From Terriglobia bacterium (lineage in GTDB: Bacteria > Acidobacteriota > Terriglobia > Terriglobales > Acidobacteriaceae): DNA of 64,000 bases. Position numbers and translations under genes: made by a program. The stretch lies in contig JAIQFD010000004.1 of NCBI GenBank assembly GCA_020073495.1, positions 485,001-549,000 of the forward strand, read 5' to 3'. The notes beneath the pieces were generated by a model. It saw only the letters and a list, made by a program, of their open reading frames with translations, did not search any database and was not told the origin of the DNA. Below are positions 35,981 through 36,504 of the stretch, piece after piece. Within the stretch, counting starts at the first letter, position 1. Every line of letters begins with the position of its first letter.

Positions 35981-36172
35981 ATGGGTACTCATAAGCTGTA
36001 CGTCGCGCTGGTCGCGTTTGCTGTGCTTGGATTGCTGGCGTGGCAAACGCTGCCGGACGAGCGCATCCGCTGGGTGGCGTGGGCGGTCTTGGGGCTGTTC
36101 ACGGTCCGCACCTTGGTCCACTGGCGGCGCGAACAGCAGGCAGTGCACAAGAGCGATTCGGAGTTTCAGTAG
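35981..36172 (+). CDS. Small two-helix membrane protein inside the tRNA cluster
   Basis: A 63-residue product starting nine bases after tRNA-Tyr and ending on the first base of the broken tRNA-Thr copy. It has two hydrophobic segments (LYVALVAFAVLGLLAW and WVAWAVLGLFTVRTLVHW) and a hydrophilic tail (RREQQAVHKSDSEFQ). There is no clear ribosome site. If translated, it would come from the tRNA precursor transcript. The protein-like pattern supports it; function unknown. Confidence 0.5.
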   Translation: MGTHKLYVALVAFAVLGLLAWQTLPDERIRWVAWAVLGLFTVRTLVHWRREQQAVHKSDSEFQ

Positions 36173-36285
36173 CCGATGTAGCTCAGTTGGTAGAGCACTC
36201 CCTTGGTAAGCGTCGCCGCAGCCGCGAAGCGGCGTTGCGGCGACACAGAAACAAAGACGTCACCAGTTCTGGTGACCGGGAGTGA
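36172..36285 (+). pseudogene. Broken tRNA-Thr(GGU) copy A with hairpin insertion
   Basis: Identical to the intact tRNA-Thr(GGU) at 36299 from the acceptor GCCGATG through the anticodon loop TTGGTAA plus one G. The 3' half of the anticodon stem is then replaced by C and a 33-base perfect hairpin (36212-36244). After it, only GTCACCAGTT of the T-arm region is recognisable; the acceptor 3' strand and CCA are missing. It cannot form a normal tRNA. Confidence 0.85.
36212..36244 (+). repeat. 33-base GC-rich hairpin inserted in tRNA-Thr copy A
   Basis: Arms GTCGCCGCA and TGCGGCGAC, inner arms CCGC and GCGG around GAA. The identical sequence is at 36421-36453 in copy C. Confidence 0.95.
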
Positions 36286-36298
36286 GCAGGGTTGCGAA

Positions 36299-36374
36299 GC
36301 CGATGTAGCTCAGTTGGTAGAGCACTCCCTTGGTAAGGGAGAGGTCACCAGTTCAATCCTGGTCATCGGCTCCA
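36299..36374 (+). tRNA. tRNA-Thr (anticodon GGU), intact
   Basis: Acceptor GCCGATG/CATCGGC, D-arm AGCTCAGTTGGTAGAGC, anticodon arm CTCCC-TTGGTAA-GGGAG, T-arm CACCAGTTCAATCCTGG, encoded CCA. It lies between two disrupted copies of itself. Confidence 0.96.
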
Positions 36375-36380
36375 GGGTTT

Positions 36381-36504
36381 TGGCGAGTAGCTCAGTTGGT
36401 AGAGCACTCCTTTGGTAAGCGTCGCCGCAGCCGCGAAGCGGCGTTGCGGCGACAAGGAAAAGAGCGGTCACCAGTTCATGTTTTTGTCCTGGTCATCGGC
36501 TCCA
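36381..36504 (+). pseudogene. Broken tRNA-Thr(GGU) copy C with hairpin insertion
   Basis: Matches the intact copy from TAGCTCAG through TTGGTAAG, then carries C and the same 33-base hairpin at the same position as copy A. Its 3' half (GGTCACCAGTTC, then TCCTGGTCATCGGCTCCA) is retained, but the T-loop holds extra bases (ATGTTTTTG). The 5' acceptor strand is TGGCGAG, which cannot pair with CATCGGC. Confidence 0.85.
36421..36453 (+). repeat. 33-base GC-rich hairpin inserted in tRNA-Thr copy C
   Basis: Base-for-base identical to the hairpin at 36212-36244, in the same orientation and at the same place in the tRNA. Confidence 0.95.

Follow-up and report, generated by a model that had tools for sequence, protein, structure and literature searches.

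Split tRNA-Thr copies of recurring design in the tRNA-tuf cluster of an Acidobacteriota family: candidates for non-decoding tRNA-like RNAs

The window, the whole stretch of DNA analysed here, comprises 64,000 nucleotides (bases 485001-549000 of contig C4) of a Terriglobia bacterium genome of 3.70 Mb in 8 contigs. It contains a tRNA-tuf cluster in the order tRNA-Thr(UGU), tRNA-Tyr, a 63-aa ORF, the tRNA-Thr(GGU) region, tRNA-Gly(UCC), a 114-aa ORF, the EF-Tu gene and tRNA-Trp. In the tRNA-Thr(GGU) region an intact gene, copy B, has an altered copy on either side, A and C, the start-to-start spacing of the three being 82-127 nt (Table 1; genomes and loci of our collection carry G and L numbers, the present genome being G000). 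Only the middle copy was called by ARAGORN and Rfam, with neither making a tRNA call for A or C. The 63-aa ORF (35981-36172), between tRNA-Tyr and copy A, is membrane-protein-like by eye and, again as read by eye, its stop codon shares the first base of copy A. No match to a sigma-70-type promoter was found near the element.

Table 1. Features of the tRNA-Thr(GGU) region and related repeats (window positions, or positions within the locus named).
Feature	Position	Strand	Remarks
Copy A	36172-36298		
Copy A, 5' half, tRNA-Thr(GGU) nt 1-39	36172-36210	+	0 mismatches to the intact gene
Copy A, hairpin 1, 33 nt	36212-36244	+	
Copy A, purine-rich linker	36245-36258	+	ACAGAAACAAAGAC
Copy A, hairpin 2, replacing the T arm	36259-36276	+	GTCACCAGTTCTGGTGAC; similar ones in G130 and G075
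Copy B, intact tRNA-Thr(GGU)	36299-36374	+	called by ARAGORN and Rfam
Copy C	36382-36504		
Copy C, 5' half	36382-36419	+	acceptor strand mismatched
Copy C, hairpin 1	36421-36453	+	identical to that of copy A
Copy C, purine-rich linker	36454-36466	+	AAGGAAAAGAGCG
Copy C, 3' half	36467-36504	+	encoded CCA; U-rich enlarged T loop at 36478-36486
tRNA-Gly(UCC) 5' stub, nt 1-13	36528-36540	+	within E1 left direct repeat; separate from the A/C element
E1 dispersed palindromic repeat, ~82 nt	36539-36620	+	
E1 right direct repeat	36632-36647		overlaps the start of the intact tRNA-Gly(UCC)
Intact tRNA-Gly(UCC)	36635-36709	+	
Second repeat family	L022 546-577; L167 744-776; L169 1055-1090; L071 2938-2966; L106 1923-1951		

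An earlier, sequence-only reading of this DNA had described three tRNA-Thr(GGU) copies of which the outer two carry an identical 33-base hairpin, and this proved correct, with several amendments to the detail. In both split copies the tRNA breaks off after position 39, two bases past 37/38 rather than the one base first given, and continues with a C and then the 33-mer GTCGCCGCAGCCGCGAAGCGGCGTTGCGGCGAC. The two 33-mers are indeed identical; they are not perfect hairpins, for two bulged bases (GT) on the 3' side split an outer stem of 9 bp from an inner stem of 5 bp. Nor does the description of an insertion followed by a 3' half hold as a pure insertion, as tRNA positions 40-44 are swapped for the hairpin and a purine-rich linker of 13-14 nt, and the T loop of copy C is enlarged (TTC-ATGTTTTTG-TCC). 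Copy A has no tRNA 3' half, and its 3' end, previously called degraded, is not merely so: it folds into a second hairpin, GTCACC..GGTGAC. Compared with each other, the 5' halves of A and C show 2 mismatches and 2 gaps and their linkers (14 nt) 5 mismatches and 1 gap, while the 34 nt of the hairpin are free of differences. In extended form each folds better than 200 of 200 shuffles (z of -3.6 and -3.3). Neither has the complete cloverleaf, normal anticodon and T loops and paired acceptor of a functional tRNA-Thr, acceptor pairing being lost in copy C, and both are tRNA-derived and unable to decode, as a pseudo-tRNA is. The loss of tRNA function proposed for copy C on account of its mismatched acceptor applies to copy A as well.

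A search of the 3.70-Mb genome for the 33-mer, with up to 3 mismatches allowed, gives exactly two occurrences, both in tRNA-Thr; the 33-mer therefore lacks the many copies at unrelated sites that mark REP elements and other dispersed palindromes. We collected cluster loci from many relatives and screened 156 distinct loci, roughly 25 of which contain extra tRNA pieces by our own count. A pattern search through 398 family genomes for a tRNA-Thr 5' half without its normal 3' stem after it matched eight genomes. A covariance model built on the shared design (R1) and searched in the 398 family genomes found split copies at 76-134 bits in ten of them, at this locus only, and the remaining listed matches were tRNAs of intact length that scored no more than 73 bits. 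R1 missed the eleventh carrier, G075, because a D-loop insert hides its split copy, and this carrier was read directly. In a 260-genome sample of the class, no genome besides the present one exceeded the strict cut-off. The known copies of the split element number 12, in 11 genomes and 6 genera, and have one common architecture: tRNA nt 1-39, the hairpin, a purine-rich linker and a 3' half with a U-rich enlarged T loop, with a variant in which a short second hairpin stands instead of the 3' half or T arm. Split copies always adjoin tRNA-Thr(GGU) on the same strand. The same cluster with the same split element is also present in JANXPR010000477.1 ('Acidobacteriaceae bacterium'), found via the 114-aa neighbour, whose split copy is identical in sequence to that of G193.

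We ran a hairpin-only model (R2), built with some of the long loops shortened, on 17 genomes (the 11 carriers and 6 non-carriers). Every carrier except G231, 10 of 11 in all, has a match in split tRNA-Thr, and the present genome has two. Elsewhere it gave six matches at chance level (E 0.147-0.397), one each in G213, G157, G001 and G130 and two in G019; five of the six non-carriers had no match at all, G001 being the sixth. The hairpin therefore belongs to the split element. Searched for in its own genome and in relatives, and chance-level matches aside, it is confined to split tRNA-Thr and is not a common intergenic repeat, which supports the earlier suggestion that one disrupted copy was duplicated. 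Since the same architecture appears in the independently assembled genomes of ten other species, an assembly error, also considered at that stage, can in practice be dismissed. Judged by sequence, copies A and C are copies of one old element and not independent insertions, arising most simply by local duplication; the split copy, the same in ten other species of the family, is likewise read as a recurring structured element rather than random damage, and the 33-nt hairpin as something other than a mobile palindrome.

Comparison of the copies provides support for a conserved structure. Hairpin pairs 46-79, 48-77, 51-74 and 52-73 have changed on both sides, with pair 51-74 seen as G-C, A-U and C-G, and the whole named structure has 18 cells with changes on both sides against 5.2 in shuffles. 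From a MAFFT alignment of 12 related sequences, whose kinship alone can outscore shuffles, we obtained a covariation score of 0.164 against 0.082 in shuffles, with none of 500 shuffles as high, and the signal was gone when the partner strand was slid. RNAalifold independently recovers the hairpin. Acceptor stems are kept in G213, G019, G128, G157 and G297, with P at least 0.9 for nearly all pairs; the T arm is lost in copy A of the present genome, in G130 and in G075, with a GTCAC..GTGAC hairpin in its place, and partial damage is seen in the copies of G176, L071 and G231. We rejected base pairing between the linker and the anticodon 5' strand as a general feature, since it is good in G157 and G176 and absent in copy A and G019. 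Because the sequences are few and related, and correction of the palindrome at the DNA level is a possible alternative, these data are support for selection and not proof of it.

The element is carried by 11 of the 398 family genomes. When the trait is mapped on a poorly resolved 135-row tree of the 114-aa neighbour, 8 changes are required, compared with 8.8 for shuffled labels. Since the carriers are few and no more clustered than shuffled labels, the split element is dispensable. G130 has the element and the near-identical G207 does not, and the junction in G207, GAAGTTTCGAGCTGATG, is the product expected from a deletion between two TTTCGAGCTGA repeats of G130. Likewise, G231 has it and its close relative G255 does not. 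Loss through recombination with the intact gene is easy, because the 5' half of the intact copy is near-identical, and is probably frequent.

We regard it as an evenly balanced proposition that A and C encode a tRNA-Thr-derived, non-decoding structured RNA transcribed with the operon. The anatomy, the common architecture, the confinement to one locus, the compensatory changes and the near-identical species with and without the element are direct observations; transcription, tRNA-type processing and any function are inferred. In this model, A and C would be two local copies of a family-specific element descended from the adjacent tRNA-Thr(GGU) gene, in which nt 1-39 were retained and the 3' side of the anticodon stem gave way to a GC-rich hairpin and a purine-rich single-stranded linker. 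The 3' half would have been retained with a U-rich enlarged T loop (copy C and most relatives) or have given way to the GTCAC..GTGAC hairpin (copy A and two relatives). Co-transcription with the same-strand tRNA-tuf operon is most likely, and the product would be a tRNA-like RNA unable to decode, with tRNA-type ends retained in the intact members. It is plausible that the hairpin is maintained through selection on its structure, that the element multiplies by tandem duplication, and that recombination between the 5' halves of element and intact gene removes it; this would account for its patchy distribution. That selection acts on RNA rather than DNA structure is something we infer, and a role as a decoy or regulator mimicking tRNA-Thr is a guess. 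The fuller version of this proposal, in which an undescribed tRNA-mimic RNA of one Acidobacteriota family, with a rebuilt anticodon arm and a T loop with a U-run, is produced from the tRNA-tuf operon, acts as decoy or regulator and has been repeatedly lost or kept, is tentative and on balance doubtful.

The main rival, which has an appreciable probability well short of even, is that A and C are functionless tRNA duplicates, relics of a single ancestral disruption of a tandem tRNA-Thr on which gene conversion and DNA template switching have acted. Patchy presence, close species without the element, the damaged acceptor of C and the lost T arms of A, G130 and G075 all agree with this, as do 5' halves that match the local intact gene, which conversion predicts. 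The 5' half of a copy can remain identical through gene conversion alone, and palindromes can stay self-complementary via DNA template switching. However, the hairpin, the purine-rich linker and the U-rich T loop recur in 6 genera although the intact gene is without them and offers no donor, and there are compensatory changes at four hairpin pairs.

It is improbable that the hairpin, or the pair formed by hairpin 2 and the purine-rich linker, terminates antisense transcription of the tRNA operon or acts as a barrier to it. Read on the minus strand, a hairpin is followed by a U-rich linker; in addition, a terminator-like match (minus strand, 36276-36259) coincides with hairpin 2 of copy A, and an equivalent hairpin-plus-linker can be read by eye in G130 and G075. 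However, the region holds four terminator-like sites against 1.4 +/- 1.1 expected, most relatives have a long-loop T arm, and in G213, L071 and G297 the minus strand of the linker shows no marked U-richness. The earlier idea of a mobile palindrome that targets the anticodon arm, inserted twice at one tRNA-Thr site, drew on identical 33-mers at the same position and has mobile-type palindromes (E1, below) nearby, but it is refuted for the genomes searched and retains a very slight probability: the own genome has no further copies at up to 3 mismatches, matches outside split tRNA-Thr in relatives are at chance level only, direct repeats around the hairpin are absent, and linker and T loop are altered together. 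Slighter still is the chance that the insert behaves like an intron and is spliced out by an unusual route to yield tRNA-Thr. It sits in the anticodon arm, and the anticodon stem of G157 and G176 could pair around it, but such splicing is very unlikely: the T loop has been rebuilt as well and, with that loop enlarged and copy A without a 3' half, removal gives no canonical tRNA. In addition, the acceptor of copy C is unpaired and cmscan found no intron family match for the copies at gathering score or E<=1. Weak Rfam matches were set aside as noise (YrlA, 18.6 bits against a cut-off of 69).

E1, rather than the 33-nt hairpin, is the mobile-type palindrome at this locus, and it adjoins broken tRNA ends: within its left direct repeat lies a further broken tRNA, a 13-nt tRNA-Gly stub that the sequence-only reading had missed. 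E1 starts 85 bp beyond the 33-nt hairpin, its left direct repeat (AGGGCGGGAGTAACTC) has 1 mismatch to the right copy, and in the sister species G001 the Gly gene is present and E1 is absent there. The present genome has 46 E1 matches (loci L203-L247), dispersed composite palindromes of about 60-100 nt. Flanking direct repeats (score at least 20) accompany 24 of the 42 copies whose ends are clear, whereas 2.4% of mismatched flank pairs reach that score; the repeats range from about 15 to 71 nt and are mostly flush with the E1 5' end. With dispersed copies and flanking direct repeats, E1 has the features of an insertion-type palindromic repeat. A tRNA gene is found within 100 bp of ten of the 46 (P ~1e-7 even with one tenth of the genome available), and the core string was not found in the open-licence literature searched; E1 is possibly an undescribed tRNA-associated insertion element. 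An E1-type insertion was considered and rejected as the source of A or C, hairpin 1 being without direct repeats and the 3' half in register.

Several further observations concern E1 and other repeats at gene ends. E1-like repeats abut stubs of tRNA-Gly nt 1-38 or tRNA-Thr nt 1-39 in G001, G008, G028, G187, G213, G345, G405 and others, and G345 (L193 1521-1904) has three consecutive tRNA-Gly nt 1-38 stubs, each with an E1-like repeat, followed by one intact tRNA-Gly. At L247 (G000 C2:42300-42900) E1 lies beside a gene end read as the 3' end of tmRNA, with the segment from T loop to 3' end repeated. E1 also occurs at starts or ends of protein genes (L207, L226, L220, L210, L221 and L231, read as dnaJ, hspR, lolC/E-like, leuB-like and yifB-like), where the direct-repeat copies differ mainly synonymously, in ~43 of 49 differing codons across seven genes by our own count. 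This bias is odd, since one copy should be untranslated, and comparison with the hspR and dnaJ genes of relatives gave no decision as to which of the two direct-repeat copies is the native one. A second repeat family (GGGTGA...GAGCCCTT or similar) separates an intact tRNA-Tyr or tRNA-Gly from a copy of the 3' end of the same tRNA. More broken tRNA-Thr copies, with a GC-rich D-loop insert, were seen at L103 1462-1531 (G157) and L106 1100-1211 (G075).

Partial tRNA repeats within a tRNA operon are familiar from the rtT RNA repeats of the E. coli tyrT operon, in which the tRNA 3' end is repeated. A and C resemble them as partial tRNA repeats in an operon, and have no Rfam match at any useful score. 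Pseudo-tRNAs with regulatory roles (PMC3399842), tRNA fragments at genomic islands (PMC4383910, PMC9897764) and REP palindromes (PMC3733652) are all already known. The Bacillus cereus pseudo-tRNA tRNA-Other derives from a tRNA and does not function in translation, lies at the edge of a genomic island and was studied by deletion and RACE (PMC3399842); A and C are likewise tRNA-derived and non-decoding, but lie in a tRNA-tuf cluster, have a conserved anticodon-arm hairpin and are known from sequence alone. As with the tRNA fragments left by integrative elements (Islander, PMC4383910; PMC9897764), a partial tRNA lies next to an intact copy. In contrast to those fragments, the 82-127 nt spacing leaves no space for an island or integrase, so that no integrase-bearing island separates fragment and intact gene, and the internal design of A and C is repeated in different genera. 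CGTC-tagged REP palindromes are dispersed, with the tag unpaired (PMC3733652); the short hairpin with its stem of ~9 bp and the CGTC start of several members here are similar, whereas the 33-nt hairpin is present twice, each time within tRNA-Thr, and has a paired GTC. We found no report of a split tRNA-Thr or a conserved anticodon-arm rebuild in the open-licence literature.

E1 suggests that many of the partial tRNA and gene-end copies in these genomes stem from a small tRNA-associated repeat with long direct repeats. As for the split tRNA-Thr copies, if they are functionless they offer a clear-cut example of shared structure and patchy distribution, both of which gene conversion and palindrome correction must then explain. 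If, on the other hand, they give a functional RNA, this locus would represent a tRNA gene turning in place, beside its parent, into a structured non-decoding RNA, and the family would provide a natural series of species with, without or with a damaged element, which would make the origin of tRNA-like RNAs testable.
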